A stretch of DNA of 64,000 nucleotides from Promicromonospora sukumoe 327MFSha3.1. GTDB lineage: Bacteria; Actinomycetota; Actinomycetes; Actinomycetales; Cellulomonadaceae. The stretch is from contig NZ_ARQM01000010.1 of the NCBI RefSeq assembly GCF_000385135.1, positions 868,001 to 932,000 on the forward strand, read 5' to 3'. Position numbers and translations under genes: made by a program. Of the stretch, positions 5,893-53,863 are shown piece after piece (positions within the stretch are counted from its first letter, which is position 1; every line of letters begins with the position of its first letter). The notes beneath the pieces are model-generated. The model did no database searches. It was not told where the DNA came from and was given only the letters and a program-made list of their open reading frames with translations.

Positions 5893-5894
5893 CG

Positions 5895-15640: not shown

Positions 15641-15693
15641 GGGGATCCCGCGGCAGGCACTGACCCCGCGGCCGGCGGCCCGGGCGCGGCTAG

Positions 15694-21946: not shown

Positions 21947-22051
21947 CGGCCTCAGCAGAGCGGGGAGTGGTCGCGCAAAGCGATCATGAACGATCATCGC
22001 TGATCGTCGCCCCGTGTGCCCGGTCCAGTCAACGACGACGGAGAGTGCCCC

Positions 22052-26282: not shown

Positions 26283-26393
26283 CAACGCTCTCCTCTGGTC
26301 CTGCCGGGTCTCTCCGTGGGCACCCGGGCAACTGACCCCGGGGGTGAATACGACAGTACCGCGAGTTCGCATACATGGACAGGGTTCCGGCCC

Positions 26394-26423
26394 TTGACCC
26401 GTGGCCCGGGTCACGTCTATCTT
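26394..26423 (+). promoter_or_regulatory. Predicted promoter of the kdu operon
   Basis: -35 TTGACC (26394-26399), an 18-bp spacer, then -10 TATCTT (26418-26423). Transcription should start near 26430, at the first operator repeat. Confidence 0.6.
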
Positions 26424-27314: not shown

Positions 27315-28069
27315 CGACCTCGCCCTTCGACCTGACCGGCCGGTGCGCCGCGGTGACCGGCGCGGGCCGCGGCCTCGGCCAGGCGGTCGCGCTCGGGCTG
27401 TCCCGCGCGGGGGCCGACGTCGTGCTGATCGGCCGGCCCGGCAACCAGGACGCCACGCGTGACCTGGTGCTCGCGCAGGGCGGCAAGGCCGACGTCGTCG
27501 ACCTGGACGTGAGCGACCTGGACGCCGTCGAGCGGGTCGGCACGGAGCTGGCCGGCTCGCGACAGATCGACGTCCTGGTCAACAACGCCGGCGTCATCGA
27601 CCGCGAGGACTCCGTGGACGTGGGCCGCGAGGCCTGGCAGCGGGTGCTCGACGTCAACCTGAACGGGCTCTTCTTCCTCACCCAGCAGCTCGGCCGGCCG
27701 ATGGTCGAACGTGGCCACGGCAAGGTCGTCAGCATCGCCAGCCTGCTGTCCTTCCAGGGCGGCCTGCGGGTGGTGTCGTACGCCGCGAGCAAGCACGGCG
27801 TCGCCGGGGTGACCAAGGCGCTGGCCAACGAGTGGGGGCCGCACGGCGTCCAGGTCAACGCCATCGCCCCGGGCTACATGGTCACCGACAACACCACGGC
27901 GCTCCGCGAGGACGCGGACCGCTCCCGCTCCATCCTCGAACGCATCCCGGCCGGCCGCTGGGGTACCGCCGAGGACATCGCCGGAGCGGCCGTCTTCCTC
28001 AGCTCGCCCGCCGCCGACTACGTCAACGGCCACGTGCTGGCCGTGGACGGCGGCTGGCTGGCGCGTTGA
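27311..28069 (+). CDS. kduD: 2-dehydro-3-deoxy-D-gluconate 5-dehydrogenase (SDR)
   Basis: A 252-residue classical SDR. TGAGRGLG (16-23) binds the nucleotide; NNAG, the serine in VVSIASLLS, YAASK and the C-terminal DGGWLA complete the family set. As the partner of KduI it reduces 2,5-diketo-3-deoxygluconate to 2-keto-3-deoxygluconate with NADH. The GTG start at 27311 overlaps the kduI stop (GTGA), indicating coupling. No KDG kinase or aldolase follows, so that part of the pathway must be encoded elsewhere. Confidence 0.92.
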   Translation: MTTSPFDLTGRCAAVTGAGRGLGQAVALGLSRAGADVVLIGRPGNQDATRDLVLAQGGKADVVDLDVSDLDAVERVGTELAGSRQIDVLVNNAGVIDREDSVDVGREAWQRVLDVNLNGLFFLTQQLGRPMVERGHGKVVSIASLLSFQGGLRVVSYAASKHGVAGVTKALANEWGPHGVQVNAIAPGYMVTDNTTALREDADRSRSILERIPAGRWGTAEDIAGAAVFLSSPAADYVNGHVLAVDGGWLAR

Positions 28070-28130: not shown

Positions 28131-29216
28131 ATGAAGTTCACCTCTCGACACACGGCCGCCGTCGTCGGCGTCACCCTGGTGGCCGCCGCGCTCACGGGCT
28201 GTACCGAAACCGCTGCCGGAGGCGGCGGCGAGACCGCCGCGGCCGAAGGCTGCGCCCCCGAGGACGTGACCCTCGTGGGTCAGGTCCGCAACGAGTCCAA
28301 CCCCTACGAGGCCTCGTGGCTCGACGGCGGCGACGCCTTCGCCGAGCAGGTCGGCCTCACGCAGGAGCGGCTCACGTACGACGGCGACTCGACCCGCCAG
28401 CAGGAGCAGATCAGCCAGCTCCTCGCCGGCGACACCGACTGCCTGGTCATGAACATCCTGCCCAACGGCGACTCGGACACCCCGCCCATCGTCGAGGGTG
28501 CCGAGGCGGCGGGCGCCTACCTCGTCACCCAGTGGAACAAGCCGGCCGACCTGAACGTCACCGACTACGACTACTGGCTGTCCCACCTCACCTACAACGG
28601 CGTGGAGTCGGGCAAGCAGATCGGCGACGCGCTGTCGGAGGCCATCGGCGGCTCCGGCGGCATCGTGGCCCTCCAGGGCATCCTGGACACCGGCGCCGCC
28701 AAGGACCGGTTCGCCGGGCTCGAGGAGTCGCTGGCCGCCAACCCGGACGTCGAGCTGCTCGACGACCAGACCGCCAACTTCTCCCGCGCCGAGGCGCTCG
28801 AGGTGACCAAGACGCTGCTCACCAAGCACGGTGACGACATCAAGGGCATCTGGGCCGCCAACGACGACATGGCGCTCGGCGCGCTGGAGGCGCTCCAGCA
28901 GGCCGGTCGCGACGACGTCGCCGTGGTCGGCATCGACGCCGTGCCCGACGCGCTCACCGCGATCGAGGACGGCACCATGACCGCCACCGTCTCCAGCGAC
29001 GGCCCGTGGCAGGGCGGCATCGGCCTGGCCATCGGCTACTGCGTGGCCACCGGCGAGCTCGCCGCCGAGGACATCGCCGACGAGGACCGCGCCTGGTACG
29101 CGGAGCAGTTCCTCATCGAGCAGGACAACGTCGCCGACTTCGTCTCCCCGGAGACCGACGAGGCCGACTTCGCCTGCGACAACCTCTTCAGCCGCTCGCA
29201 GGGCGCGATGTCGTGA
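28131..29216 (+). CDS. Ribose-type ABC transporter substrate-binding lipoprotein
   Basis: 361 residues. A lipoprotein signal peptide ends in the lipobox AALTGC near residue 24. The mature part is a periplasmic-binding-protein-like I (RbsB-type) fold: QVRNESNPYEASWLDGGDAF, QEQISQLLAGDTDCLVMNIL, GIVALQGILDTGAAKDRFAG, IKGIWAANDDMALGALEALQ and VAVVGIDAVPDAL. It captures a sugar outside the membrane and delivers it to the two permeases encoded behind it. The setting next to kduI/kduD suggests an (unsaturated) uronide or related oxidised sugar as ligand (inference). Confidence 0.92.
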   Translation: MKFTSRHTAAVVGVTLVAAALTGCTETAAGGGGETAAAEGCAPEDVTLVGQVRNESNPYEASWLDGGDAFAEQVGLTQERLTYDGDSTRQQEQISQLLAGDTDCLVMNILPNGDSDTPPIVEGAEAAGAYLVTQWNKPADLNVTDYDYWLSHLTYNGVESGKQIGDALSEAIGGSGGIVALQGILDTGAAKDRFAGLEESLAANPDVELLDDQTANFSRAEALEVTKTLLTKHGDDIKGIWAANDDMALGALEALQQAGRDDVAVVGIDAVPDALTAIEDGTMTATVSSDGPWQGGIGLAIGYCVATGELAAEDIADEDRAWYAEQFLIEQDNVADFVSPETDEADFACDNLFSRSQGAMS

Positions 29217-30235
29217 CCATGACGACATCCCCCGCCGAAGCCGACACCGACGTCGTGCACGCGCAGCGCCCCCGGCCTCGGCGGGGGGTGTCCCTCATGG
29301 ACGCGGGTCCACCGATCGCGCTCGTCGTGCTCTTCGGTGTCTTCGCGGCCATGAGCCCCGGCTTCCGGACGTTCTCGAACGTACAGAACGTGCTGGACGC
29401 CGCGGCCGTCCTCGCGGTCGTGACCTGCGGCATCAGCTTCGTGCTGATGATGGGGTCGATCGACCTGTCCGCGCCCGGCATCATGGGCGCCTCCGCGATC
29501 ACGGTCGCCCTGCTGGTCGCCAACAACCGCAACGACAACGACCTCGGCCTGGTCGGCGTCCTCGTCGCCGTGCTCGTCGCGGCAGCCCTCGGCTGTCTCA
29601 GTGGGCTCGCGCTGGTGGTGCTGAAGGTGCCCTCGTTCATGGCCACCCTCGGCGTCTCCGCCGTCGGCCTGGGCGTGGCCACCCTCATGTTCGCGGGCGT
29701 CCAGCCCAACATCTCCGACGCGATGCTGGAGGGCTGGGCCGTCGAGCGGTTCCTCGGGCTGGCCCGGCTCACCTGGATCGCCCTGGCCTGCGTGATCGCG
29801 GCCTGGCTGGTCCAGCGCTACACCCGCCTGGGCCGGTACGCGTTCGCGATCGGCGGCGCCGAGGAGGTGCTGGCCCTGTCCGGCGTGCGGGTCGCGCCCT
29901 ACAAGGTGGCGGTCTTCACCATGGCCGGCGCGTTCTACGGGCTGGCCGGCGTGATGGTCACCAGCCAGCTCGGCGCCGGCCTGGTCCAGGCGGGGCGGGG
30001 CTTCGACTTCTCCGCCATCACGGCCGCCGTCGTCGGCGGCACCCTGCTCATCGGCGGCCGGGGCGGCATCCTGCAGTCCACGGTCGGCGTGCTGCTCGTG
30101 ACGGTGCTGACCAACGGCCTGGTCCAGGTCGGCGTCAGCCCGTACTGGCAGGGCGGGGTCCAGGGCCTCATCGTCGTCGCGGCCGTCGCGGCCGCCGTCA
30201 TCCCACAGCGTCGTAGGAACCAGGTGACCAAGTGA
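29213..30235 (+). CDS. ABC sugar transporter permease (RbsC-like), first of two
   Basis: 340 residues with about nine to ten membrane segments. Family marks: ALVVLFGVFAAMSPGFRTFS, FVLMMGSIDLSAPGIMGASA (the GxIDLS motif), ALVVLKVPSFMATLGVSAVG, RYTRLGRYAFAIGGAEEVLA and AITAAVVGGTLLIGGRGGIL. A GTG start overlaps the upstream stop by 4 bp (GTGA); an ATG two codons later is the alternative. It forms a heterodimeric membrane channel with the permease at 31797. Confidence 0.92.
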   Translation: MTMTTSPAEADTDVVHAQRPRPRRGVSLMDAGPPIALVVLFGVFAAMSPGFRTFSNVQNVLDAAAVLAVVTCGISFVLMMGSIDLSAPGIMGASAITVALLVANNRNDNDLGLVGVLVAVLVAAALGCLSGLALVVLKVPSFMATLGVSAVGLGVATLMFAGVQPNISDAMLEGWAVERFLGLARLTWIALACVIAAWLVQRYTRLGRYAFAIGGAEEVLALSGVRVAPYKVAVFTMAGAFYGLAGVMVTSQLGAGLVQAGRGFDFSAITAAVVGGTLLIGGRGGILQSTVGVLLVTVLTNGLVQVGVSPYWQGGVQGLIVVAAVAAAVIPQRRRNQVTK

Positions 30236-31794
30236 CAACCGACCTGCAGACCGACCCCGGGCCGCGCGCGCCGGGGTCCCCGGCCGCCCTCGAGGTGCGC
30301 GGCCTGGTCAAGCACTACCCGGGCGTCAAGGCGCTCGACGGCGTCGACCTGGTCGTGCGCCAGCACGAGGTGCTCGGCCTGGCCGGCGAGAACGGCGCCG
30401 GCAAGTCCACGCTGCTCAAGGCGCTGGTCGGCCTGGTCCGGCCCGACGCCGGCGAGATCTGGGTGCGCGGCGAGAAGGTCAGGCTGCGCAGCATCATGGA
30501 CGCCGCCGACCACGGCATCGGCATGGTGTTCCAGGAGCAGTCGCTGGTGCCCAACCTGACCGCCGCCGAGAACATCGTGCTCGGCAGCGAGGGCCCGGGC
30601 GTGCGCCGCGGGGTCTACCGCTGGCGCACCATGCGCGCGCTCGCGCAGGAGCAGCTCGACAAGATCGGGTCGCACATCGACCCGCTCGCGCGCACCGACA
30701 CCCTGAGCTTCGCCGACCGGCAGATGGTCGAGATCGCCAAGGTGCTGCGGATCGAGGAGCGCACCTCGCACCCGCCGGTGATCATCCTCGACGAGCCCAC
30801 CTCGGTGCTGGAGTCCAAGGAGATCGACACTCTCTTCACCCAGGTGCGCCGGCTGCGCGAGTTCGCGTCCGTCGTCTTCGTCTCCCACCGGCTCGACGAG
30901 GTGCTCGACGTCTGCGACCGGGTCGCCGTGCTGCGCGGCGGCCAGTCGGTGGGCGAGGTGCCCGCCGAGGGTGCGGCGCCGGCCGAGCTGCACCGCATGA
31001 TGATCGGCTCGACCGGGGCCGACGACCACTACCACGACAGCGCCGCCGAGCGGTCCGACGAGCCCCGCCGGCCCCGCCTCGAGGTGCGCGGCCTGTCCGG
31101 CAAGACCTTCCGCGACGTCGACCTCGACGTGCACGCCGGGGAGATCGTCGGCATCGTCGGCGTGCACGGCTCCGGCCGCGAGGACGTGTGCCGGGCGCTC
31201 TTCGGCGCCGAGCCCACGACGGCGGGCGAGGTGGTGCTCGACGGCAAGAAGCTGGAGCTGTCCGGCACCCGCGCGGCCTGCGCCGCCGGCGTCGGCTACG
31301 TGCCGGCCGAGCGCAAGACCGAGGGCATGGTCGGGCCGATGTCGGTGGCCGACAACATGACCCTGACCAAGCAGCAGGCCCGCTGCAGCGGGCCCGTGGT
31401 GCGCCCGCGCAAGCAGGCGTCGCTCGTGGACGGGTGGATCGAGCGGCTCTCGATCCGCACCCCGCACCGGGGCACCGCGATCCAGCGGCTGTCGGGCGGC
31501 AACCAGCAGAAGGTGGTCCTCGCGCGCTGGCTGGTGGCCGGCGACGTGCGCCTGCTGCTGCTCGACCACCCGACCCGTGGCCTCGACATCGGGGCGCGCT
31601 CGGAGGTCTACCGGCTGATGCGGGAGCTCGCCAACAGCGGAGTGGCCACCGTGCTGCTGGCCGACAGCCTGGAGGAGGCGATCGGCATGTCCGACCGCAT
31701 CATCGTGATGAGCGACGGCCGCGCGACCAAGGAGGTCGCGGCCCCCGCGGGGGGCAAGCCCACCCCGCTCGACCTCGTCAAGGAGATGGTCTGA
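30232..31794 (+). CDS. ABC sugar transporter ATPase (RbsA-like, two nucleotide-binding domains)
   Basis: 520 residues with tandem ATPase domains. NBD1 has Walker A GENGAGKST and Walker B VIILDEPTS, but its signature is degenerate (LSFADRQMVEIAKVL). NBD2 has the usual weak Walker A of this family (GVHGSGRED), a good signature LSGGNQQKVVLARW, and Walker B LLLLDHPTRGLDIG, where the catalytic Glu is replaced by His446. It energises import by the flanking permeases. GTG start overlaps the upstream permease stop (GTGA). The DHPT change implies that NBD2 may bind but poorly hydrolyse ATP; a sequencing error is possible but the codon (CAC for GAG/GAA) needs two changes. Confidence 0.93.
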   Translation: MTTDLQTDPGPRAPGSPAALEVRGLVKHYPGVKALDGVDLVVRQHEVLGLAGENGAGKSTLLKALVGLVRPDAGEIWVRGEKVRLRSIMDAADHGIGMVFQEQSLVPNLTAAENIVLGSEGPGVRRGVYRWRTMRALAQEQLDKIGSHIDPLARTDTLSFADRQMVEIAKVLRIEERTSHPPVIILDEPTSVLESKEIDTLFTQVRRLREFASVVFVSHRLDEVLDVCDRVAVLRGGQSVGEVPAEGAAPAELHRMMIGSTGADDHYHDSAAERSDEPRRPRLEVRGLSGKTFRDVDLDVHAGEIVGIVGVHGSGREDVCRALFGAEPTTAGEVVLDGKKLELSGTRAACAAGVGYVPAERKTEGMVGPMSVADNMTLTKQQARCSGPVVRPRKQASLVDGWIERLSIRTPHRGTAIQRLSGGNQQKVVLARWLVAGDVRLLLLDHPTRGLDIGARSEVYRLMRELANSGVATVLLADSLEEAIGMSDRIIVMSDGRATKEVAAPAGGKPTPLDLVKEMV

Positions 31795-31796: not shown

Positions 31797-32789
31797 ATGT
31801 CCACCCCCGTCCTCGCCCAGCCGGCCCCCGACGCGCCGGTCGTCCACCGGCCCACCGTGGGCCAGCGGCTCACGTCGTTCATGCCGGTCATCGCGCTCGT
31901 CGTGCTGCTGGCGGCGCTGACCATCGCCGACCCCGGCTTCCTCACCCTGAGCAGCCTCACGGCGGCGGTCCGGACCGCCGCCCCGCTCATCGTGCTCGCG
32001 GCCGGCGCCACCGTGGTGGTCCTGTGCGGCGGCATCGACCTGTCGATCGCCGCGCTCTGCTCGCTGGCCACCGTGTTCTTCGCGCTGTGGCTGCCCGACC
32101 TCGGCGGGGCCACCACCCTCGCGATCATCGCGGCGACCGGCGCGATCGGGGCGCTGCAGGGCGTGGTCCACGTGCTGCTGCGCATCCCGTCGTTCATCGT
32201 CACCCTCGGCGGCATGAGCATCTTCGCCGCGATCGCCCTGGTGATCTCGGACGCCGGCCCGATCCCGCTGTCCGACCGGGACTCCACCAAGTGGCTCACG
32301 CTCTACGTCGCGGGCGTGCTGCCGATGGCGTTCGTCGTCGCGCTGGTGCTCGTCGCTGTCGTCTCCCTCGTGCTGAAGCTCACCCCGCTGGAGAGCTGGG
32401 TGCGGGCCACCGGCTACTCGGAGTCCGCCGCCCGCCTGGGCGGCGCGCCCGTCGACCTGGTCAAGATCGGCGCGTTCACCCTCTCGGGTGCCTGCGCGGG
32501 CCTGGCCGCCGTCATGCTGGTCTCCCGCAACTTCAGCGGCAGCCCGACCATGGCGGACAACCTGCTGCTCCCCGCGGTGGCGGCCATCGTGGTGGGCGGC
32601 ACCGCCATCACCGGCGGCCACGGCTCGCTGTGGCGCAGCCTCGCCGGGGCGCTCGTGGTGACCCTGCTGCGCGTGGGGCTGCCGATCGTCGGCGTCCCGT
32701 CGGCCTACGAGCAGATCCTGTACGGGGCGATCATCGTCGCCGCCGTCGCGCTCACCCTGGACCGATCGAAGGTGCTGATCATCAAGTAG
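31797..32789 (+). CDS. ABC sugar transporter permease (RbsC-like), second
   Basis: 330 residues with multiple membrane helices and the motif VVVLCGGIDLSIAALCSLAT, plus IPSFIVTLGGMSIFAAIALV, LESWVRATGYSESAARLGGA and AAIVVGGTAITGGHGSLWRS. It follows the ATPase stop by 2 bp. Two different permeases in one ribose-type system are found in some carbohydrate-uptake-2 transporters where the channel is a heterodimer. Starts at the ATG 31797. Confidence 0.92.
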   Translation: MSTPVLAQPAPDAPVVHRPTVGQRLTSFMPVIALVVLLAALTIADPGFLTLSSLTAAVRTAAPLIVLAAGATVVVLCGGIDLSIAALCSLATVFFALWLPDLGGATTLAIIAATGAIGALQGVVHVLLRIPSFIVTLGGMSIFAAIALVISDAGPIPLSDRDSTKWLTLYVAGVLPMAFVVALVLVAVVSLVLKLTPLESWVRATGYSESAARLGGAPVDLVKIGAFTLSGACAGLAAVMLVSRNFSGSPTMADNLLLPAVAAIVVGGTAITGGHGSLWRSLAGALVVTLLRVGLPIVGVPSAYEQILYGAIIVAAVALTLDRSKVLIIK

Positions 32790-32862: not shown

Positions 32863-34353
32863 ATGTCCGAGAACTCCCTTCTCCTGCCCGCCGTCTCGAA
32901 GTTCCTCTCCTCGCCCAAGCAGCTCCTGATCGACGGCGAGTGGGTGGACGCCAAGGACGGCCAGACCTTCGCGACGGTGAATCCCGCGACCGAGGAGGTC
33001 CTCGTCCAGGTGGCCCAGGCCTCCGCGATCGACGCCGACCGGGCCGTCACCGCCGCCCGGAACGCCTTCGAGCACGGTTCGCCGTGGTCGAGGATGACGC
33101 CGCGCGACCGCTCCCACCTGCTGTGGCGCATCGGCGACATGATCGACGAGCGCGCCGAGGAGTTCGCGCAGCTCGAGTCGCTCGACAACGGAAAGAGCGT
33201 CGCGTCCGCGCGCGGCGACGTCGGCGTGGCCGCCGAGCTGTTCCGGTACTTCGCCGGGTGGGCCACCAAGATGGAGGGCACCACCATCCCGATGTCGGTG
33301 CCGGGCCGCGACTTCCACGCGTACACGCGGCGCGAGGCCATCGGCGTCGTCGCGGGCATCGTGCCGTGGAACTTCCCGCTGACCATGGCCGCCTTCAAGA
33401 TCATCCCGTCGATCACCGCGGGCAACACCGTGGTGCTCAAGCCCGCCGAGCAGACCCCGCTCACCGCGCTGCGGCTCGGCGAGCTGCTGCTGGAGGCCGG
33501 CGTCCCGGCCGGTGTCGTCAACGTGCTGCCCGGGTTCGGCGACGCGGGTGCCGCCCTGGTGGACCACGCGGGCGTCGACAAGGTTGCCTTCACCGGCAGC
33601 ACCGAGGTGGGCAAGAAGATCGCCGCGGGCGCCTCGCGGAACCTCAAGAAGGTGTCGCTGGAGCTGGGCGGCAAGGCGCCCAACATCATCTTCGCCGACG
33701 CCGACCTGGACGCCGCGATCGCCGGCGCCGCGCTGGCCGGCTACTTCAACGAGGGCCAGTGCTGCGTCAACGGCTCGCGCCTGTACGTCCAGCGCGAGGT
33801 GTTCGACCAGGTCATCGAGGGCGTCGCCGCGGCGGCCAAGGCCATCAAGGTGGGCGACGCGTTCGACCCGGCCACCACCATGGGCCCGCTGGTCTCGCAG
33901 GAGCAGCACGAGAAGGTCATGGGCTACGTGCGCGGCGCGGTGGCCGACGGCGCCACGATCGCGGCGGGCAGCCCCGACCCGGCCGCCGACCGCGGCTACT
34001 TCTTCTCGCCGACCCTCATCACCGACGTCACCGAGCAGATGGCCGTGCAGACCGACGAGATCTTCGGGCCCGTCATCACCGCCATCCCGTTCGACACCGA
34101 GGACGAGGTCGTCGCCGCGGCGAACAACACCGTCTACGGCCTGGCCGCCGGCGTCTGGTCCAAGGACCTCGGCACCGCCCACCGCGTGGGCGGCCGCCTG
34201 CGCGCCGGCACGGTCTGGCTCAACACCTGGCACGCCGACGACGTCACCCTCCCGCGGGGCGGCTTCAAGCAGTCCGGCTGGGGCCGCGAGCTGGGCTCGT
34301 TCGGCCTGGACGACTACACGGAGCTCAAGACGGTGATCGCCGAGCTGCGCTGA
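32863..34353 (+). CDS. NAD(P)-dependent aldehyde dehydrogenase
   Basis: 496 residues of the ALDH superfamily. Cofactor and active-site landmarks: IVPWNFPLTMAAFKIIPSIT, VLKPAEQTPLTALRLGELLL, FTGSTEVGKKIAAGAS, E267 in LELGGKAPNI, the catalytic cysteine C301 in FNEGQCCVNGSRLYVQ, and EIFGPVITAIPF. It oxidises an aldehyde to an acid in the cytoplasm. As the last intracellular gene of the kdu/ABC cluster, behind a 73-bp gap, it may oxidise a sugar aldehyde or semialdehyde from the imported compound (inference). The closest textbook classes are betaine/phenylacetaldehyde-type ALDHs; the substrate cannot be read from sequence. Confidence 0.92.
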   Translation: MSENSLLLPAVSKFLSSPKQLLIDGEWVDAKDGQTFATVNPATEEVLVQVAQASAIDADRAVTAARNAFEHGSPWSRMTPRDRSHLLWRIGDMIDERAEEFAQLESLDNGKSVASARGDVGVAAELFRYFAGWATKMEGTTIPMSVPGRDFHAYTRREAIGVVAGIVPWNFPLTMAAFKIIPSITAGNTVVLKPAEQTPLTALRLGELLLEAGVPAGVVNVLPGFGDAGAALVDHAGVDKVAFTGSTEVGKKIAAGASRNLKKVSLELGGKAPNIIFADADLDAAIAGAALAGYFNEGQCCVNGSRLYVQREVFDQVIEGVAAAAKAIKVGDAFDPATTMGPLVSQEQHEKVMGYVRGAVADGATIAAGSPDPAADRGYFFSPTLITDVTEQMAVQTDEIFGPVITAIPFDTEDEVVAAANNTVYGLAAGVWSKDLGTAHRVGGRLRAGTVWLNTWHADDVTLPRGGFKQSGWGRELGSFGLDDYTELKTVIAELR

Positions 34354-34442
34354 CCAGGCCCCGAGAGCGCTGAGGCTCAGGGGGCACCACATGTTCAGGG
34401 GGCACTGAACGCAAGACGCACCACCGGAGTGCAGCTCCGGGG

Positions 34443-34469
34443 CGGCCGACCCCGTGCGGGGATCGGCCG
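34443..34469. terminator. Hairpin after the kdu/ABC/aldehyde dehydrogenase genes
   Basis: CGGCCGACCCCG (34443-34454) pairs with CGGGGATCGGCCG (34457-34469) with one bulge. It lies between the aldehyde dehydrogenase and the giant oxidase gene and could terminate or attenuate. A direct repeat TCAGGGGGCAC also occurs twice within 34377-34407. Confidence 0.45.
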
Positions 34470-34518
34470 TCCCGGCCTGCCCTCATGTCCATCCACCACG
34501 TGCGAAAAGGGATCAAAG

Positions 34519-37500
34519 ATGAACCTGTTCCGCAGACCTGACCGGCGGCGCGACGCGCGTCGTCTGACCCGGGCCCCGATACGACTGGCGGCCATGCTGG
34601 TCGCCCTGGGGGTGGCCGCGCCGCTCATGGGCGGCGTCGCCCAGGCCGCGCCGACCCCTGCCGCGCCGGCCGCGGCCGGGTCCGTCGACGACGGCGTGCT
34701 GCGCGTCCTGCTCTTCTACAAGTCCAACTTCCACGCGTCGCACGTCCAGGCCCGCCAGGCCGTCCGCGACCTCGTCACGGACCTGGGCGTCGAGTACGAC
34801 CAGCCGGTCGAGATCCAGGAGACGGACGACCCCGCGGCGTTCACCACGGCGAACCTCGCGACCAAGGACACGGTCGCCTTCGCCCAGACCGGTGGCGTGC
34901 TGTTCAACGTGGACCAGCGCGCCGCGCTGGAGGGGTACATCCGCGGTGGCGGCGGGTACCTCGGCCTGCACTACGCCGGCTGGTCGGTCGGGCAGAGCGA
35001 GCACGACGTCAACCCGTTCTACGCCCGGCTCGTGGGCGCGGTGTCCGAGGGCCACCCCGAGAACCCGGCGGTCCGCCCGGGCCGCGTGGTCGTCAAGGAC
35101 ACCTCGCACCCGCTGACCCAGGGCCTGCCGACCGAGTTCACCCGCAGCGACGAGTGGTACGACTGGGTGGTCAACCCGGCGCCCAACGTGCGCACCCTGC
35201 TCAACGCCGACGAGTCGTCGTACGGCGGGGGCAACAACGGCACGAACCACCCGATCACCTGGTGCCAGGAGATCGACGAGGGCCGGTCGTGGTACTCCGG
35301 GATGGGGCACGAGGGCACGGCGTACGCCGAGGCCCCGATCCGCACCCAGATGAAGAACGGCCTGGCCTACACCGCGGGCCTGCTCCCGGCCGACTGCTCG
35401 CCGCCGGACAAGGCGGAGAACGGCGCCTGGAGCGGGGTCACGCCCTGGCCGCTGGTGCCGATCAACGCGGCGCTGACGTCCGACGGCAAGGTGCAGTCGT
35501 TCGGCAGCGTGTCGTCGGGCTGCACCGACAACACGCCCTACGACTTCGGCGGCAACTCGTGCGTCGTGCAGGGCGGCCAGATGGAGATCGACGTCTGGGA
35601 CCCGACCGAGGAGCGCACGGCCGCGAACGTGAACGACGGCATCGTGACGAACTCGACGTACACCGACCTGTTCTGCTCGATGCAGGTGCAGATGCCGCAC
35701 CGGCGCGCCACGATGACGGTCGGCGGTGACGACGGCCTGGGCGGCAACGCGCCCAACGACGCCGCCATCGGCGTCACGAGCTACACGACCAACCAGGGCC
35801 TGCGCAACGAGGCCCCGATGAACTACCCGCGCTGGTACCCGACGGGCACCACCCTGCCCGACGGCTCCGTCGTGGTGCAGGGCGGCAGCCTCAAGGGCGG
35901 CCCGGGCGGCCCCGGCGTCCTGACGCCGGAGCTCTACACCCCGGACGAGGGCAGCTCCTGGAAGCTGCTGGAGGGCGCCACGAGCGCGGCCGCGTACGGC
36001 GACGGCGGGAACGGCAACGGGCCCGACGAGAACCGCTGGTGGTACCCGCGCGCGTTCGTCGCGCCGGGCAACGGCAACGTCTTCAACATCACCGGCACCC
36101 AGATGTACGAGCTCGACCCGTCCGGTGACGGCGAGGTGACCCTGCGGGGCACCCTGCCGGCGGACGTCGCCAACCAGGGCGGCCTCGGCAACCCGGTCGG
36201 CGCCACGTCGACGGCGACCATGTACCGCCCCGGCAAGATCCTGCAGGTCGGCGGTGGCTGGTGGGCCAACGGCGGCGGTCCGGACGGCGCCCGCGCCGGC
36301 TTCACCGTGGACATCACGGGCGGCACGGACGCGCCCGTGGTCGAGAAGACGGAGCCGATGCAGTACGCCCGGCACTGGGCCACGTCCACGGTGCTGCCCG
36401 ACGGCGACGTGATCGTCACCGGCGGCTCCCGGGACAACAACGGCAACGGCGGCTACGTCACCACGGCCGAGATCTGGGACCCGGAGACGGGCGAGTGGAC
36501 CACGATCGACGTGCCGTACGAGCACGCCCGCCTGTACCACTCGACCGCGCTGCTCCTGCCGGACGGCCGCGTGATGGTGGGCGGCGGCGGCACGCCGGGC
36601 CCGCGCAACTACACGGACGTCGAGTTCTACTCGCCGGCGTACCTGTTCGACGGCGACGAGCCGGCGGTCCGCCCCGCGGTCACGGGCGTGCCGAAGAAGG
36701 TCGGCTACGACGGCACGTTCGGCGTCCAGGCCGACGGCGAGGTCTCGCGCGTCACCCTGGTCCGCAACGGCTCCGTGACGCACGGGTTCAACAACGACCA
36801 GAACTTCCAGGACCTGGCGTTCGCCCAGTCGGGCGACGACCTGACCATCGAGACCCCGGTCGACGGCACCTATGCCCCGCCCGGCGCGTACATGCTCTTC
36901 GTCTTCGACGAGGACGGCACGCCCTCGGTGGCCGACATCGTCCAGATCGACCCCGAGGTCGCGATGGACGCCCGGGCCCCGCACCTGGTCGACCAGATCG
37001 AGTACCCGCGCCTGCCGGCCGAGTGGCGCTCCGCCAACCCGCCGGCCGTCGTCGACGTGGCGCCCGGCAACGGCCGGATGTCCCCGTGGGAGGTGGACGG
37101 CGACGTCCAGCTCGTCCGCGCGGCGGCCTCGAGCCAGGGCGGTCTCGGCCTGACGGGCTACCACCTCGCCGTCGGCACCGAGGGCGACCTGACACGCACG
37201 GTCAAGGGTCTCGACCCGGGCCGCGAGTACCGCGTCTCGCTGCGCTACGCCCGCGACAGCCGGTCCGCCGGCACCGCCCCGGGCACGGCGGACCTCTCGG
37301 TCGGTGACCTGTCCACCACGCTGTCGGCGGGGTCGAACCTGTCGTCGCAGAGCAAGTTCGGCACGTACGTCGGCACCTTCACCGCCGGGGCCCGGTCGCA
37401 GGACCTGACCCTCGCGGCCGGGGACTCCGGCGCGGGCGTCATGATCGACGACCTAGTGATCGTGGGCTCCGACCCCGGAGCCGGCGACGTCCCCGTGCAC

Positions 37501-40281
37501 TACGAGTTCGAGGAGGGCACCGGCACGCGGGCCGCGAACACCGGCACGGACGACTCGGTGGGCGCCGCGGCGCTCACGGGGACGACCGGGTGGAGCGAGA
37601 ACGGCGTCTTCGGCGACGCGCTCGACCTGGCCGGCGGCAGCAACGCCAACGCGGTGGACCTGCCCGACAACCTGCTGCAGGGCGAGGAGGCCTTCACCAC
37701 CTCGTTCTGGGTGCGTCCCGACGTGCGGACGGGCTGGACCGGTCTGTTCCACATCGGTGACGGGCTGGCGGGGGCGGGCAGCTTCTTCCAGATCCAGATG
37801 CAGACCAACGCCGCCGCCGGCGGCACGGGTCTGGCCGCGACGTTCAAGGCCAAGGGTGCGGCCCTGGAGGAGCGGGTCTACGCCACGCCCACCCGGGACG
37901 TGGCCGTCGACGAGTGGAACCACGTCGCGTTCACCCGCCAGGGTGCGACCGGCACGCTCTACCTCAACGGCGAGGCCGTCGCGTCGCGCAACGACCTGAC
38001 GATCGACATGACCGACGTCGGTCCGACGGCGAACAACTGGCTGGGCCGCAACGGATTCCCGGACCCGGCCTACGACGGCCTGATGGACGACGTCCGGGTC
38101 TACACCTCGGCGCTCGGCGACGCCGACATCGAGGCCCTGTACGCCGACGGCAGCGCGCTCGCCACGACCACCACGGTCGCGGTCGAGCCGGGCTCTCCGT
38201 CGCCGTTCGGCGAGCCGGTCGACGTCTCGGCCACGGTCGAGGACGAGACCGGCGCGGCGCCCACGGGCGTCGCGGAGCTGTGGGTCGACGGCGCCCGCGT
38301 GGGCGGGCAGGTCGACCTGGCCGACGGCGCGGTGCGGTTCACGGACGTGGCGCTCTCGCCGGGCGACCACGAGGTGCAGGTCCGCTTCGTGGCCGACGAC
38401 GGGTGGCGCGACTCCGCACGGACCGTGGAGCACACGGTCGAGCGGCCGCCGCCCGGTACGGGCACGCCGATCCACTACAGGTTCGACGAGGGTCAGGGCA
38501 CCACGGCGGCCAACACCGGGCTGGACAGCTCGGTCGGGGCGGCCACCCTCGGCGGGTCGGCGGGCTGGAACCCGGCCGGACGGTTCGGCTCGGCGGTCAA
38601 CCTGCCCGGCGGCGCGTCGGGCACGGGCAACCAGGTCAGGCTGCCGGACAACATCGAGGCGGGGATGGAGGACGAGTTCAGCGTCTCCATCTGGGCCCGG
38701 CCGGACGCCCTGCCCACGTGGGTGCCGCTGCTGCAGATCGGCAGCAGCACCGACACGTTCTTCCTGCTCCAGTCCAACACCCAGACGAGCGGCGCCACCG
38801 GCTTCGCGGCGACCTTCAAGGCGCCGGGGACCCCGGGCAGCGCCCAGGAACGTCTGGTGCTGGGCCAGGGCAACGACCTGCCGCTGAACGAGTGGACGCA
38901 CGTCGTGTTCACCCAGAGCGGCTCGGTCGGGAAGATCTACTTCGACGGCGAGCTCCAGGCCACGCGCGACGACTTCACCGTCACCATCGGTGACGTCGGC
39001 GTGGGCGGGCAGACGACGGCCAACCTCATCGGCGGTACCAGCTGGCCCGACGCCCGCTGGGACGGCCTGGTCGACGACTTCCGGATGTTCGGTTACGAGC
39101 TCACCGCCGAGCAGGTCGGTGACCTGCACGCCGGCACCGCGGCCAACACGGCCCCGGTGGGCGCCGCCGACGCCTACGGCACCGTCGAGGACGAGCCCCT
39201 GACGGTGGCGGCGCCGGGGGTCCTGGCCAACGACACCGACCTCGACGGGGACGACCTGACCGCGACCGGGCTCACGCAGCCGGCCCACGGCGACGTCGTG
39301 CTCAACGGGAACGGGTCCTTCACCTACACGCCGGACAGCGGGTTCTTCGGCACGGACACTTTCACCTACCAGGCCTCCGACGGCGCCGCGCAGTCCGCGG
39401 CGACGACGGTGACCATCACCGTCGAGGAGGGGGAGCAGCCGCCGGTCAACACCGCGCCGGTGGCCGGCAACGACGCCTACGCGGCAGTGGGCGGCCAGCC
39501 CCTGACGCTCCCGGCGCCAGGCGTCCTGGCCAACGACACCGACGAGGACGGCAACGTGCTCACCGCCACCGCGGTGACGCAGCCGGCCAACGGCCGGGTC
39601 ACCCTGGAGGCGGACGGCTCGTTCACCTACGTCTCCGACGACGGGTTCTCCGGCAAGGACGTGTTCACCTACAAGGCCTCCGACGGCACGGCGACGTCCG
39701 CGCCGGCCACGGTGGCCATCACGGTGAAGTCGCCCAAGGTGACGGCCGTGGCGGGCGTCGCCCTGCCGATCACCTACGGCACGGCCGGCACGGTCTCGGT
39801 GGCGGTGTCCCCGGACACGGCCACGGGCACGGTCGAGCTGAGCAACGGCACCACGGCGCTGGCGAGCGGCACGGTCGCGGACGGACGGGCGACCCTCGTC
39901 CTGCCGGCCAACACGGTCCGCCCGGGCGTGTACGACCTCACCCTGCGGTACGGGGGCGACGCCGACCACAAGCCCGCGTCCTCCAAGGTGCGGGTCGTGG
40001 TCGACAAGGTGGTGCCGACCATGGAGATCGAGGCGAAGAAGGGCAAGGCCAAGAAGGTCGTCGTCGACGTGTCGTTCACGGCCGCGCACGAGGTCCCGGT
40101 GACGGGGCAGGTGCGCATCGCGGTCAAGGACGGCCAGACGCTGACCGGGGACATCAAGGACGGGCTCGCCCGCTTCGAGGTGAACCAGCCCAAGGGGAAG
40201 GACCTGACGCTCACGGCGTCCTACCTCGGCAGCGAGCTCGCGCTCGCGGCCGAGACCAGGGTGACGGTCAGGGTGAAGTAG
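34519..40281 (+). CDS. Giant secreted ThuA-copper radical oxidase fusion
   Basis: 1920 residues with a Sec signal peptide (ends near AQAAP, residue ~45). Domains in order: ThuA-like (57-294, LRVLLFYKSNFHASH, GGGGYLGLHYAGW, SGMGHEGTAY); a galactose-oxidase/glyoxal-oxidase kelch propeller with Ig-like cap (297-816); a galactose-binding-like region (817-985); LamG (991-1212); Ig-like (1213-1312); LamG (1314-1537); two cadherin-like/VCBS modules (1542-1737); Ig-like (1742-1832); a C-terminal beta domain. The radical-copper site looks intact: C386 (DLFCSM) to crosslink with Y440 (RWYPT), axial Y673 and ligand H674 (RLYHSTALLLPDG), and H755 (VTHGFNN). It should oxidise primary alcohols or aldehydes outside the cell with H2O2 release. 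A longer frame from 34429 would precede the AAAGGGATC ribosome region; ATG 34519 gives the signal peptide. Its place directly behind the kdu operon suggests sugar oxidation (inference). Confidence 0.88.
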   Translation: MNLFRRPDRRRDARRLTRAPIRLAAMLVALGVAAPLMGGVAQAAPTPAAPAAAGSVDDGVLRVLLFYKSNFHASHVQARQAVRDLVTDLGVEYDQPVEIQETDDPAAFTTANLATKDTVAFAQTGGVLFNVDQRAALEGYIRGGGGYLGLHYAGWSVGQSEHDVNPFYARLVGAVSEGHPENPAVRPGRVVVKDTSHPLTQGLPTEFTRSDEWYDWVVNPAPNVRTLLNADESSYGGGNNGTNHPITWCQEIDEGRSWYSGMGHEGTAYAEAPIRTQMKNGLAYTAGLLPADCSPPDKAENGAWSGVTPWPLVPINAALTSDGKVQSFGSVSSGCTDNTPYDFGGNSCVVQGGQMEIDVWDPTEERTAANVNDGIVTNSTYTDLFCSMQVQMPHRRATMTVGGDDGLGGNAPNDAAIGVTSYTTNQGLRNEAPMNYPRWYPTGTTLPDGSVVVQGGSLKGGPGGPGVLTPELYTPDEGSSWKLLEGATSAAAYGDGGNGNGPDENRWWYPRAFVAPGNGNVFNITGTQMYELDPSGDGEVTLRGTLPADVANQGGLGNPVGATSTATMYRPGKILQVGGGWWANGGGPDGARAGFTVDITGGTDAPVVEKTEPMQYARHWATSTVLPDGDVIVTGGSRDNNGNGGYVTTAEIWDPETGEWTTIDVPYEHARLYHSTALLLPDGRVMVGGGGTPGPRNYTDVEFYSPAYLFDGDEPAVRPAVTGVPKKVGYDGTFGVQADGEVSRVTLVRNGSVTHGFNNDQNFQDLAFAQSGDDLTIETPVDGTYAPPGAYMLFVFDEDGTPSVADIVQIDPEVAMDARAPHLVDQIEYPRLPAEWRSANPPAVVDVAPGNGRMSPWEVDGDVQLVRAAASSQGGLGLTGYHLAVGTEGDLTRTVKGLDPGREYRVSLRYARDSRSAGTAPGTADLSVGDLSTTLSAGSNLSSQSKFGTYVGTFTAGARSQDLTLAAGDSGAGVMIDDLVIVGSDPGAGDVPVHYEFEEGTGTRAANTGTDDSVGAAALTGTTGWSENGVFGDALDLAGGSNANAVDLPDNLLQGEEAFTTSFWVRPDVRTGWTGLFHIGDGLAGAGSFFQIQMQTNAAAGGTGLAATFKAKGAALEERVYATPTRDVAVDEWNHVAFTRQGATGTLYLNGEAVASRNDLTIDMTDVGPTANNWLGRNGFPDPAYDGLMDDVRVYTSALGDADIEALYADGSALATTTTVAVEPGSPSPFGEPVDVSATVEDETGAAPTGVAELWVDGARVGGQVDLADGAVRFTDVALSPGDHEVQVRFVADDGWRDSARTVEHTVERPPPGTGTPIHYRFDEGQGTTAANTGLDSSVGAATLGGSAGWNPAGRFGSAVNLPGGASGTGNQVRLPDNIEAGMEDEFSVSIWARPDALPTWVPLLQIGSSTDTFFLLQSNTQTSGATGFAATFKAPGTPGSAQERLVLGQGNDLPLNEWTHVVFTQSGSVGKIYFDGELQATRDDFTVTIGDVGVGGQTTANLIGGTSWPDARWDGLVDDFRMFGYELTAEQVGDLHAGTAANTAPVGAADAYGTVEDEPLTVAAPGVLANDTDLDGDDLTATGLTQPAHGDVVLNGNGSFTYTPDSGFFGTDTFTYQASDGAAQSAATTVTITVEEGEQPPVNTAPVAGNDAYAAVGGQPLTLPAPGVLANDTDEDGNVLTATAVTQPANGRVTLEADGSFTYVSDDGFSGKDVFTYKASDGTATSAPATVAITVKSPKVTAVAGVALPITYGTAGTVSVAVSPDTATGTVELSNGTTALASGTVADGRATLVLPANTVRPGVYDLTLRYGGDADHKPASSKVRVVVDKVVPTMEIEAKKGKAKKVVVDVSFTAAHEVPVTGQVRIAVKDGQTLTGDIKDGLARFEVNQPKGKDLTLTASYLGSELALAAETRVTVRVK

Positions 40282-40764: not shown

Positions 40765-41475
40765 ATGAATCGCAAGACCGCCGTCCGGCGCGCCACCCTG
40801 TCCGGACTCGCCGCCGCCGGCCTGGTGGCGCTGGCGACCGTGCCGGCCTCGGCCCACGTGACCATCACGCCGTCCACCACCGCGGCGGGCGCCACGGCCG
40901 AGCTCCGGGTCGAGATCCCGCACGGCTGCGCCGAGTCCGCGACCACCGCGATCACCATCCGGATGCCGGAGGGGGTCACCGAGGTGCGCGCCTCCGGCAC
41001 GGACCGCTGGGCGGTCGACCAGGCCGCGGACGCCCTCACCTACAGCACGGACACCCCGCTGCCGGACGGCGAGCACGCCGAGGTCGCCTTCTCCGTGCGC
41101 CTGCCCGACGACGACGGGGCGACCCTCGTCTTCCCGGTCGTCCAGCGGTGCGAGGTGGGCGAGGCCGCCTGGACCGAGGTCGCCGAGCACGCGGAGGGGC
41201 ACGACGACCTGGAGCGGCCGGCGCCGGTGCTGGTCGTGACGGAGGGGAAGGGTGGAGACGAGGCCGAGGCCGAGCCTCTGGCCGAAGCCAGTGCGGTCGC
41301 CGAGCATGCCGAAGCAGGAGCTGACGACGCCGCCGAGGCCGCACCCGCCGACGCCGCGCCCGCTGCCGCCGACTCCGGCCGCAACCCCCTGGTCACCTAC
41401 GGCGCGGCCGCCCTGCTGGTCGCGGGCGCGCTGGCGGGCGGCGTCGTCCTGCTCCGCCGGCGCCGGAACTCATGA
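40765..41475 (+). CDS. ycnI: YcnI (DUF1775) copper-binding membrane-anchored protein
   Basis: 236 residues. A Sec signal peptide is cut before the conserved N-terminal His (ASA|HVTITPS), which in YcnI binds copper(II) together with a Glu and a Trp. The DUF1775 core follows (ELRVEIPHGCAESATTAITI, RMPEGVTEVRAS, FPVVQRCEVGEAAWTEV), then an Ala/Glu-rich linker and a C-terminal helix (LVTYGAAALLVAGALAGGVV) with a basic tail, so it is anchored facing outward. It is the first gene of a two-gene operon with CopC-CopD (ATGA overlap) and probably helps copper acquisition. Confidence 0.9.
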   Translation: MNRKTAVRRATLSGLAAAGLVALATVPASAHVTITPSTTAAGATAELRVEIPHGCAESATTAITIRMPEGVTEVRASGTDRWAVDQAADALTYSTDTPLPDGEHAEVAFSVRLPDDDGATLVFPVVQRCEVGEAAWTEVAEHAEGHDDLERPAPVLVVTEGKGGDEAEAEPLAEASAVAEHAEAGADDAAEAAPADAAPAAADSGRNPLVTYGAAALLVAGALAGGVVLLRRRRNS

Positions 41476-43277
41476 GCCTCGCCGACGCCGGCCGCCGCGC
41501 CGGGGGCTGGCTGCTCCTGCTCACCGTCCTGGCCGCCCTCCTGGTGGGCCCGGCGGGCAGCGCCTCGGCCCACGCCACCCTCGTCAGCACCGACCCGGCC
41601 CAGGGCGCGGTGCTGGAGACCGCGCCCGAGCGGGTCACGTTCACGTTCAACGAGTCCGTGATCGGCGTGCCCGCGGGCATCAAGGTGTTCGACGCGACGG
41701 GCACCGAGGTGGCCTCCACGGCCACGGTCCGCGCGTCACGGCTCCTCGTCGACCTCGACGAGGAGGTCGCCGACGGCACCCTCGTGGTCGTGTGGCGGCT
41801 CGTGTCCGAGGACGGGCACCCGATCGGCGGCTCGCTGAGCTTCGCGGTCGGCGCGCCCAGCGACGTCGTCGACGTGCCCGGGACCGGCGCCGACGCCGGG
41901 ACCGAGGCACCCGCCCTGCTCGGCGTGGTCCGCGGCGTCGGCTACGTGGGCCTGCTCCTGGCCGCCGGGCTGGCCGCCTTCGCGGTGCTGTTCCTCCCGC
42001 GCGACCCGGCCGCCGACCGCTCGCGGGCCCGGCTGCGGCCCGTCGCCCGCGTGGCGGCCGGCGTCGGCGCGCTCGGCTGGGCGGCCGCCGTGCCGCTGGT
42101 CGCGCTCTACCAGCTCGGCCTCCCGGCCTCCGCGCTCGCCGACGGCGACACCTGGACGGCGCTCGCGGCCACCGAGTACGCGGTGCCGGCCGCCGTCGTC
42201 GCGGGACTCGCCCTGGCCGTGTGCGCGCTCCCGGCGTCCGCCCCCGGCCGGGGACGGACCGTGCTGGTGCTGGCCGGCTGCGCGCTGGCGGTCACCGCGC
42301 CCGCGTTCACCGGGCACACGCGGGCCGCGACACCCGAGGCGCTCGTGCTCGGCGGGGACGTGCTGCACCTGGCCGCCGGGTCCCTCTGGCTGGGCGGCCT
42401 GGTGGCGATCGCCCTGGTGCTCGGCGACCTCGCGCGCGGCGAGCACGGCGCCGTCGTGCTCGGCGCGTTCTCCACCTGGGCGGCCGGGCTGCTCGCGGTG
42501 CTGGTGGTCGCGGGGACCGTGCTGGCGTGGCGGATCTCCGGGAGCTGGGCGGCCCTGCTCGACTCCGGCTACGGCGCCCTGCTGCTGGTCAAGGTGCTCG
42601 CCGCCCTGGTCGCGATCGGCATCGCCGCGTGGAACCGGTACGCGCTGCTACCGAGGTTCCGGACGGCGGCGGCGCAGCCCGAGCCCACCCGCCCGCCTCC
42701 GCCCCGCGGCCGCAAGGCGTCCCGCAGCGGTGCGGTCTCCCGCGGCCGCACGGCGCCCGCCCGCACCGACCGTTCGGCGTCGGCCACGCCGCTGGTCCGG
42801 ACGGCGCTCGCGGAGGCGGGCGTGCTGGTCGTCGTGCTGGCGGTCACCGGCTTCCTGGTGGACCGGAGCCCGGAGACGGCGTCGGCGGTCGCGGCCGAGG
42901 ACCGCGGGGAGAGCGCCACCGAGTCGGTGAAGCTGGACGACATCGCGGCGCGGATCACCCTGGACCCCGTCGCCGTGGGGCCCGCCACGCTCACGATCGA
43001 GATGACCGACGCGGCGGGGGAGCCCGCGGAGGGCTTCGAGGCCCCGCGGATGAGCCTGGCGTCCGACGAGGTGGAGCTCGGGGAGCTCTCGCTCAGCTCG
43101 CTCGGGCCGGGCGTGTACGCGGGCGACGTCGTGCTGCCGACCACGGGGGAGTGGGAGGTGCAGGTGTCGCTGCGCACCACGGAGTTCGACAACCCGGTGC
43201 GGACGGTGACGTTCCGGGTGCCGGACGCCGCCGCCGAGGACCCTGGGCCGAGCGAGAGCGCTCAGGTGAGCCGGTAG
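41472..43277 (+). CDS. CopC-CopD fusion copper transport protein (YcnJ-like)
   Basis: 601 residues. A signal peptide ends at ASA before HATLVSTDPAQGAVL, the CopC domain (to about residue 135) with the copper-binding N-terminal His and the SEDGHPIGG motif. CopD follows with about eight membrane helices (GVVRGVGYVGLLLAAGLAAF, HLAAGSLWLGGLVAIALV, GYGALLLVKVLAALVAIGIA), then an extracytoplasmic YcnJ-type C-terminal domain (ITLDPVAVGPATLTIEMTDA, PTTGEWEVQVSLRT). It imports or delivers copper across the membrane. The ATG overlaps the ycnI stop. The 3' end overlaps the convergent methyltransferase by 16 bp. Confidence 0.93.
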   Translation: MSLADAGRRAGGWLLLLTVLAALLVGPAGSASAHATLVSTDPAQGAVLETAPERVTFTFNESVIGVPAGIKVFDATGTEVASTATVRASRLLVDLDEEVADGTLVVVWRLVSEDGHPIGGSLSFAVGAPSDVVDVPGTGADAGTEAPALLGVVRGVGYVGLLLAAGLAAFAVLFLPRDPAADRSRARLRPVARVAAGVGALGWAAAVPLVALYQLGLPASALADGDTWTALAATEYAVPAAVVAGLALAVCALPASAPGRGRTVLVLAGCALAVTAPAFTGHTRAATPEALVLGGDVLHLAAGSLWLGGLVAIALVLGDLARGEHGAVVLGAFSTWAAGLLAVLVVAGTVLAWRISGSWAALLDSGYGALLLVKVLAALVAIGIAAWNRYALLPRFRTAAAQPEPTRPPPPRGRKASRSGAVSRGRTAPARTDRSASATPLVRTALAEAGVLVVVLAVTGFLVDRSPETASAVAAEDRGESATESVKLDDIAARITLDPVAVGPATLTIEMTDAAGEPAEGFEAPRMSLASDEVELGELSLSSLGPGVYAGDVVLPTTGEWEVQVSLRTTEFDNPVRTVTFRVPDAAAEDPGPSESAQVSR

Positions 43278-53821: not shown

Positions 53822-53835
53822 GTGTCGGCCAGGCA

Positions 53836-53849: not shown

Positions 53850-53863
53850 ATGAAGGAGCAGCC

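Follow-up and report, generated by a model that had tools for sequence, protein, structure and literature searches.

KduI requires 4-deoxy-5-hexosulose uronate (4-deoxy-5-keto-uronate), which normally comes from uronate polymers by the action of lyases and then of GH88/GH105 or PL22 enzymes; KDG (2-keto-3-deoxygluconate) kinase and KDPG aldolase complete the standard route from this compound to pyruvate. The first steps of the route proceed via KduI and KduD, and a link has been described between kduI-kduD clusters and a compound derived from pectin and glycosaminoglycans (PMC12838403, excerpt). For copper radical oxidases of family AA5, the Trp290/Arg330 pair has been described as a key indicator of galactose 6-oxidase activity (PMC11267884, excerpt). 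We analyzed a stretch of 64,000 nt (the window) from Promicromonospora sukumoe 327MFSha3.1 (contig NZ_ARQM01000010.1, positions 868,001 to 932,000), in which a single gene joins a ThuA domain to a galactose oxidase-type copper radical oxidase and lies beside genes for KduI, KduD, a sugar transporter, and copper handling. The domains of this fusion protein, the conservation of its predicted ligands, and its gene linkage were established by computation. Of the readings considered, the likeliest is that the fusion serves a conserved operon as its entry enzyme, on an oxidize-then-eliminate route to KDG.

The ThuA-oxidase fusion and its relatives

The fusion protein of 1920 residues is encoded by the open reading frame (ORF) at 34519-40281 (+). 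The frame was open over 34429-40281 (+), and the ATG at 34519 was preceded by AAAGGGA, which resembles a ribosome site. The features of the gene are as follows.

34519..40281 (+): ThuA-copper radical oxidase fusion protein, 1920 residues (ORF, Pfam, phmmer)
34519..34680 (+): residues 1-54, N-terminal basic and hydrophobic segment that by eye resembles a secretion signal, followed by a short linker
34702..35373 (+): ThuA domain, residues 62-285 (Pfam PF06283, E 1.8e-48; modeled; best PDB match ThuA-like 4jqs)
35398..36948 (+): galactose oxidase-type (AA5-like) copper radical oxidase, residues 294-810, predicted ligands C386, Y440, Y673, H674, and H755 (phmmer, alignment, Foldseek)
37642..38130 (+): first LamG domain (Laminin_G_3), residues 1042-1204 (Pfam)
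39145..40002 (+): two cadherin-like/Big_9 repeats (residue 1543 to about 1737) and an Ig-like Big_3_5 domain (1750-1828) (Pfam)

The second LamG domain (also Laminin_G_3) was found by Pfam near residues 1318-1537. The ThuA match scored 166 bits (cut-off 33.4) and covered the full profile (1-209 of 209). Pfam also placed a GO-like_E_set domain at residues 718-810 (PF09118, E 9.7e-21), with kelch models N-terminal to it, and found two Laminin_G_3, two Cadherin_5/Big_9, and one Big_3_5 domain; Glyoxal_oxid_N was slightly below its cut-off (36.9 vs. 37.5 bits). Residues 294-810 were aligned with galactose oxidases by phmmer (9g8h, E 9.8e-41; 1gof, E 8.3e-32). A preliminary description, made from the letters of the window, had proposed exactly this composition for one protein (ThuA, oxidase, two LamG, two cadherin-like, and Ig-like domains), and Pfam and phmmer bore it out; the signal peptide that it named corresponds to a signal-like start recognized by reading the sequence. 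The fusion of ThuA to a copper radical oxidase is thus confirmed. It holds the sole early-set galactose oxidase match of its 6.25-Mb genome.

Modeled alone, the ThuA domain had a predicted local distance difference test score (pLDDT) of 90.5, and its best solved relatives (4jqs, 4pxy, 4e5v, and 1t0b) were all deposited as ThuA-like. The match to 4jqs (E 2.8e-17, template modeling score 0.76/0.74) corresponds to a ThuA-like fold. An AlphaFold2 model of residues 51-811, comprising ThuA and the oxidase, reached a pLDDT of 80.3 and a predicted template modeling score of 0.83. The junction near residue 295, which the preliminary description had singled out for structure prediction, was modeled well (pLDDT blocks 87 and 79); weak stretches of the joint model include residues 336-347 and 405-417, within the oxidase. 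PDB matches to the N-terminal part of the joint model were ThuA-like proteins, and those to the oxidase part were galactose oxidases (the best matches; Foldseek E 6.3e-36), Colletotrichum copper oxidases, GlxA, and glyoxal oxidase.

A scan of genome contigs with the oxidase as query yielded 71 loci; the scan relies on peptide patterns and therefore finds close relatives. Sixty-six of these loci, all actinobacterial, were at least 63% identical to the window oxidase and are treated here as close relatives. ThuA was immediately N-terminal to the oxidase in all 66, and 64 were intact single ORFs of 1216-2294 residues, so that the ThuA plus AA5 architecture is not a single oddity and a chimera confined to one genome was ruled out. 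Excluded from the 66 were L102, which is 42% identical and truncated by a contig edge, and L106-L109, whose distant kelch-type matches cover part of the query at 27-48% identity and in which no ThuA was found. The set of 65 used below omits one further locus, the broken copy L103, and the set of 64 also omits L099, with a split frame. The former (5084-7600, +; Microbacterium sp. NIBRBAC000506063) is a decayed fusion gene with matches over several frames, one of them with stops. In the latter (5220-10600, +; Nocardioides sp. TF02-7), the fusion gene extends across two frames, owing either to a real split or to an assembly error.

The hosts of the close relatives include Promicromonospora, Myceligenerans, Isoptericola, Cellulomonas, Nocardioides, Kribbella, Blastococcus, Actinoplanes, Catellatospora, Asanoa, Nonomuraea, Herbidospora, Jiangella, and other actinobacteria; the nearest named oxidase match was that of Promicromonospora kroppenstedtii (99% identical). 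The fusion was rare in the sampled genomes, being present in 2 of 297 genomes of the order (at most three candidates scored per genome, five in a second pass) and in 9 of 394 genomes of the class (oxidase E ≤ 1e-60). Distant oxidases without ThuA also exist, at approximately 31-34% identity (L011, L012, L032, L035, and L037), and some distant relatives on plasmids belong to genes whose annotation includes discoidin or ricin domains. Carriage of the fusion by viruses or plasmids was ruled out: the viral-contig scan found no oxidase relatives, and the 18 plasmid records with oxidase matches were all partial, none covering 80% of the query. In searches of the open-access literature, the fusion was not named and no characterized member was found.

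In pairwise alignments, C386, Y440, Y673, H674, and H755 sat opposite the galactose oxidase ligands, which we take to be Cys228, Tyr272, Tyr495, His496, and His581. None of the five predicted ligands varied among 37 aligned sequences or among the 64 intact fused relatives, in agreement with the ligand set given in the preliminary description. The 64 were chosen as ORFs of more than 1000 residues with both domains, so their unanimity speaks for the ligands and not for the fusion. A kelch propeller followed by an early-set domain (PF09118, kelch models, and Foldseek) and, at aligned positions, a predicted Cys-Tyr pair, an axial Tyr, and two His residues mark the enzyme as AA5-like. The Trp290/Arg330 pair was not kept. 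The equivalent of Trp290 is L458 (Leu in 53, Val in 6, Ser in 3, and Ile in 2 of the 64 intact relatives), and that of Arg330, placed by sequence alignment beside gaps, is P502 (Pro, Ala, Gln, and others among the 64, never Arg). The strict label of galactose oxidase (galactose 6-oxidase, EC 1.1.3.9) was therefore dropped. Membership in GlxA was also dropped because the NCBIfam GlxA model gave 127.6 bits against a cut-off of 800.

In the ThuA domain, invariant residues of the 64 intact copies were His72, His151, Glu161, His179, DEWY 211-214, His244, WC 248-249, Arg256, Tyr259, and His264, nearly all of which were also retained in 11 ThuA domains of other proteins. Two other proteins of the same genome (L139 and L140) join ThuA to a GSDH sugar dehydrogenase, and in one of the two a 3-keto-disaccharide hydrolase domain is attached as well. 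At L140 (1245-5276, -), a frame of 1344 residues, the ThuA match is divided into two segments that enclose or adjoin an F5/8 type C domain; GSDH, PKD, and 3-keto-disaccharide hydrolase domains come after them. In Paractinoplanes aksuensis (L071), a ThuA ORF 81% identical to the ThuA of the window lies directly ahead of a ThuA-oxidase gene; from about residue 460, the frame at 1327-4869 (+) probably encodes a free ThuA-LamG-LamG protein. A fusion of this ThuA to an unfamiliar stretch of 495 residues was considered and discarded, since the stretch appears by eye to result from a frame called too long, upstream of a signal-like start; it had no match in Pfam or the PDB and no relative in the viral scan. 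From its retained residues, the GSDH fusions, and the free form in Paractinoplanes, ThuA seems to take an active part alongside sugar oxidoreductases and not to be a passive linker.

Linkage to a sugar operon

The linkage of the fusion gene with a sugar operon was solid. In the window, a divergent IclR gene, kduI, kduD, a CUT2 transporter, and an aldehyde dehydrogenase (ALDH) gene lie upstream of the fusion gene, and genes for YcnI, which we presume to have a copper role, and for CopC-CopD lie downstream.

25485..26414 (-): IclR-family regulator, divergent (Pfam; in 19 of 20 extended loci)
26496..27314 (+): KduI, 5-dehydro-4-deoxy-glucuronate isomerase (NCBIfam NF002091, 360 bits, above the cut-off of 250)
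27311..28069 (+): KduD-type short-chain dehydrogenase (TIGR01832, 338.0 bits vs. cut-off 338.85)
28131..29216 (+): CUT2 sugar-binding protein (Peripla_BP_4)
29216..30235 (+): CUT2 permease 1 (BPD_transp_2)
30232..31794 (+): CUT2 double ATPase (ABC_tran)
31797..32789 (+): CUT2 permease 2 (BPD_transp_2)
32863..34353 (+): aldehyde dehydrogenase (Aldedh, E 3.4e-173; none of the 25 NCBIfam models listed reached its cut-off)
40765..41475 (+): YcnI-like protein (DUF1775; in 30 of 65 loci)
41472..43277 (+): CopC-CopD fusion, copper binding and transport (Pfam; in 32 of 65 loci)

Neighbor counts were taken from tblastn. The complete set (IclR, KduI, KduD, binding protein, two permeases, ATPase, and ALDH) was present in 19 of the 20 extended loci. 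It was upstream of the fusion in most of them, downstream in Blastococcus (L131) and Actinotalea (L132), and divergent in Jiangella (L129); because the layout of the set differs among loci, the linkage has survived rearrangement. The position of the copper genes also varied, being upstream of the fusion in Catellatospora (L125), Herbidospora (L128), and Paractinoplanes (L126). Among the 65 shorter (13-kb) loci, ALDH was found in 59, YcnI in 30, and CopC-CopD in 32, and these counts are undercounts because the shorter loci are cut. The two permeases cross-match at approximately 33%, so the 59 of 65 obtained for each in the 13-kb loci cannot be taken as independent counts; the extended loci show the two permeases at separate places. 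The linkage was also seen in the class as a whole. With thresholds that we set ourselves, 9 of 394 genomes carried the oxidase (see above) and 10 carried this type of ALDH (E ≤ 1e-190); all nine oxidase genomes shared the ALDH type, and in each of them the two genes lay on the same contig, no more than 15 kb apart.

KDPG aldolase and a PfkB gene resembling KDG kinase were present in 32 of the 65 loci, and in a Nocardioides locus (L049) they were placed between the ALDH and fusion genes. The KDPG aldolase of this locus exceeded its family cut-off (TIGR01182, 235.4 vs. 156.05 bits).

Other carbohydrate-related genes were observed elsewhere in the window. These encode two GH59 (galactocerebrosidase-type) proteins (22016-24871, +, and 56444-59386, +), an alpha-1,3-glucanase-type protein (CatAgl D1/D2) that also carries F5/8 type C and CARDB domains (44557-48147, +), and an MGH1-like/trehalase-like glycosidase (53822-56383, +).

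Proposed pathway and alternative readings

We infer the secretion of the fusion protein, its substrate, each of its reactions (above all that of ThuA), and the order of the steps. The fusion would be secreted and would open a sugar pathway that does not rely on hydrolysis. Its LamG modules would hold the polysaccharide, and the copper radical oxidase would convert the C6 hydroxymethyl group of a 4-linked glucose- or galactose-type sugar to an aldehyde, which would render the C5 hydrogen acidic. We hypothesize that the fused ThuA then performs a beta-elimination across C4-C5, which would cleave the chain in the manner of a polysaccharide lyase and release 4-deoxy-hex-4-enodialdose. This product would be imported by the CUT2 transporter and oxidized at C6 to the carboxylate by the ALDH, yielding 4-deoxy-5-hexosulose uronate, which KduI and KduD would convert to KDG, and KDG kinase and KDPG aldolase to pyruvate and glyceraldehyde 3-phosphate. 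YcnI and CopC-CopD would supply the copper.

ThuA is proposed as the eliminating enzyme because the C4-C5 elimination needed by the KduI substrate has no other enzyme here and ThuA is the unassigned catalytic part, fused to the oxidase. An aldehyde-making oxidase together with an ALDH would account for a C6 carboxylate derived from a neutral sugar. The KduI substrate has the threo configuration, which galactose and glucose, and not mannose, give after the stereochemistry at C4 and C5 is lost; a 4-linked galactan or glucan is therefore proposed, and the sequence permits no finer choice. For 3-keto glycosides, elimination beside a carbonyl has been described to break glycosidic bonds, by enzymes that are not named ThuA in the excerpted source (PMC10628242). 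The preliminary description had suggested that ThuA acts on the oxidized sugar. The fit with the operon, the position of ThuA ahead of the oxidase in all 66 close relatives, and the ThuA-GSDH fusions favor this suggestion, and the action itself is still conjectured, so that the earlier interpretation was partly supported.

The supply of the KduI substrate in these genomes is also consistent with the proposed route. Family searches were made in 22 genomes (G308 and G316 excluded); for genomes reached through the loci, completeness was not stated, so that an absence there may reflect a draft gap. GH88/GH105 exceeded the cut-off in 2 of 19 oxidase-bearing genomes, and PL22 was found in 0 of the 22. 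PL1 and UxaC were each absent from 7 of the 19 oxidase-bearing genomes. GH88/GH105, PL1, PL22, and UxaC were all missing from four Nocardioides genomes (G300, G301, G303, and G315), Blastococcus G302, and Jiangella G314. Two of three genomes with an oxidase-free operon had GH88/GH105 above the cut-off, a difference from the oxidase-bearing genomes that was not significant (Fisher test, P = 0.07).

Several observations weigh against the oxidize-then-eliminate route. PL1 and UxaC were each present in the other 12 of the 19 oxidase-bearing genomes, including that of the window, where the argument from scarcity is therefore weaker; partial GH88/GH105 matches fell slightly below the cut-off of 26.6 bits in the genome of the window (24.9) and in G297 (22.7); and the lyase searches covered the families PL1 and PL22 among polysaccharide lyases. 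The KduD of the window was 0.85 bits short of its NCBIfam cut-off. KDPG aldolase and the kinase lie outside the operon of the window, and the former is common (22 of 22 genomes, as well as 8 of 14 controls). The L049 kinase is PfkB by Pfam and passed no NCBIfam cut-off, with 140.2 vs. 440 bits for the best KDG kinase equivalog, hence the label KDG-kinase-like. The sole exception among the 20 extended loci is an oxidase copy of Paractinoplanes aksuensis without the operon (L071/L124); a second oxidase copy of the same genome (L086/L126) does have the full set. Spontaneous elimination at C6 aldehydes is possible, and none of the papers found in the open-access literature gives ThuA a proven reaction or shows the action on oxidized (keto) sugars that is ascribed to rhizobial ThuA/ThuB. 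Galactose oxidase itself can carry the aldehyde on to the acid (PMC6391835, excerpt), which would leave less for the ALDH.

The same operon also occurred without the oxidase in three Micrococcales genomes (L130, L133, and L134), and in the order survey three of the five genomes with this ALDH type lacked the fusion and two had it; the operon is thus not bound to this enzyme. Strains with an oxidase-free operon may import what other organisms produce or rely on a different source. In L134, an epimerase-family gene (GalE-like by eye) and a galactokinase gene (15336-17516, -) adjoin the oxidase-free KduI-KduD-CUT2-ALDH operon, a weak hint of galactose.

Some of these observations would suit other explanations. 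The operon would also fit C6 oxidation without elimination, in which the oxidase would yield galacto-hexodialdose, the ALDH would yield galacturonate, KduI and KduD would play a side role on uronates as isomerase and reductase, and ThuA would be ancillary (e.g., binding or hydrating). The genomes with UxaC and the marginal KduD score are in keeping with this explanation, as is the implication of Escherichia coli KduI and KduD in hexuronate conversion, but the seven genomes without UxaC are not, and an altronate dehydratase would be needed. The KDPG aldolase and KDG-kinase-like genes of the 32 loci fit a KDG intermediate, through which this explanation also passes. We regard it as unlikely. We consider slightly less likely still that the genes are linked by one material, pectin, and not by one pathway, with KduI and KduD serving lyase-made unsaturated galacturonate, and the oxidase and ALDH acting on galactose side chains. 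The PL1-type lyase genes of the 12 genomes and the reported tie of kduI-kduD clusters to a pectin- and glycosaminoglycan-derived compound (PMC12838403, excerpt) agree with this; however, PL22 was found in none of the genomes searched, PL1 was missing from seven, GH88/GH105 passed the cut-off in two only (with two more just below), and no lyase was among the conserved neighbors identified, the genome searches for lyases having covered PL1 and PL22.

The enzyme might instead serve H2O2 production or work on cell-wall glycans, as GlxA does in Streptomyces, with ThuA as a catalytically dead carrier. An AA5 enzyme fused to an inactive CE3 domain is reportedly in print, judging by a title; some bacterial oxidase relatives sit in the discoidin- or ricin-annotated genes mentioned above; and GlxA acts in morphogenesis (PMC4736821 and PMC3543389, excerpts). 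We find this improbable, given the catabolic-type operon with its sugar transporter, the GlxA model score far from its cut-off, and the polar residues shared with other ThuA domains, which were invariant in 64 copies, unlike those of a dead domain. As a whole, the oxidize-then-eliminate route, with the fusion as secreted first enzyme and ThuA eliminating, is a tentative reading that we place somewhat short of probable. It is possible, and in our view rather doubtful, that one secreted protein oxidizes C6 of a neutral sugar in a glucose- or galactose-based polymer by a copper radical, cuts the chain by ThuA elimination at the aldehyde, and feeds a KDG operon, without the need for a glycoside hydrolase or for uronic acid in the substrate. 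The general idea of C6 oxidation followed by elimination is not new; the enzyme pairing and the operon were not found in print in the literature searched.

Comparison with known systems

If the proposed route is correct, oxidation followed by elimination would join hydrolysis, uronate lyases, and monooxygenases as ways in which microbes cut polysaccharides. It would explain the KduI-KduD pathway in genomes where the searched feeder enzymes are scarce, and it would give ThuA a reaction, as well as a direct test of its function. Even if the oxidase half alone were right, a conserved actinobacterial copper oxidase would be tied by its neighbors to sugar uptake and breakdown in a defined operon.

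The galactose oxidases of AA5 (Fusarium 1gof; bacterial 9g43 of Pseudoarthrobacter siccitolerans; 9g8h) share with the window oxidase the kelch propeller, the early-set domain, the five predicted ligands, and an alignment over the whole oxidase, with 22-28% identity in the fold alignment. In contrast to them, the fusion has an N-terminal ThuA domain, a long LamG/cadherin tail, and a catabolic-type operon, and lacks the Trp290/Arg330 pair. GlxA of Streptomyces (4unm) has in common with it the actinobacterial copper radical oxidase fold and differs in the NCBIfam score (127.6 vs. 800 bits) and the N-terminus. In Burkholderia pseudomallei, an AA5 alcohol oxidase is reportedly fused to an inactive CE3 domain, according to a title by Mazurkewich from 2023. 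There, too, AA5 is joined to a second carbohydrate-enzyme fold; CE3 is inactive by that title, whereas the ThuA of the fusion keeps its conserved residues.

The ThuA-GSDH proteins (L139 and L140) likewise combine ThuA, a sugar oxidoreductase, and carbohydrate-binding domains, with GSDH in place of the copper radical oxidase and ThuA domains that are 41-42% identical. The KduI-KduD pathway (PMC12838403, excerpt) has the same isomerase-reductase pair, with KduD marginal by score in the window, and the pair is joined here to ALDH, CUT2, copper genes, and the oxidase, mostly in genomes without GH88/GH105 above the cut-off and without PL22. For the C6-oxidizing cellulose monooxygenase HiPMO1, C6 oxidation and then beta-elimination of a neutral glucan have been postulated, with PL20 acting after oxidation to glucuronic acid (PMC6391835, excerpt). 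That scheme pairs a monooxygenase with a separate lyase, whereas in the present system a copper radical oxidase is fused to ThuA, the elimination would take place at the aldehyde, and an operon would receive the product.

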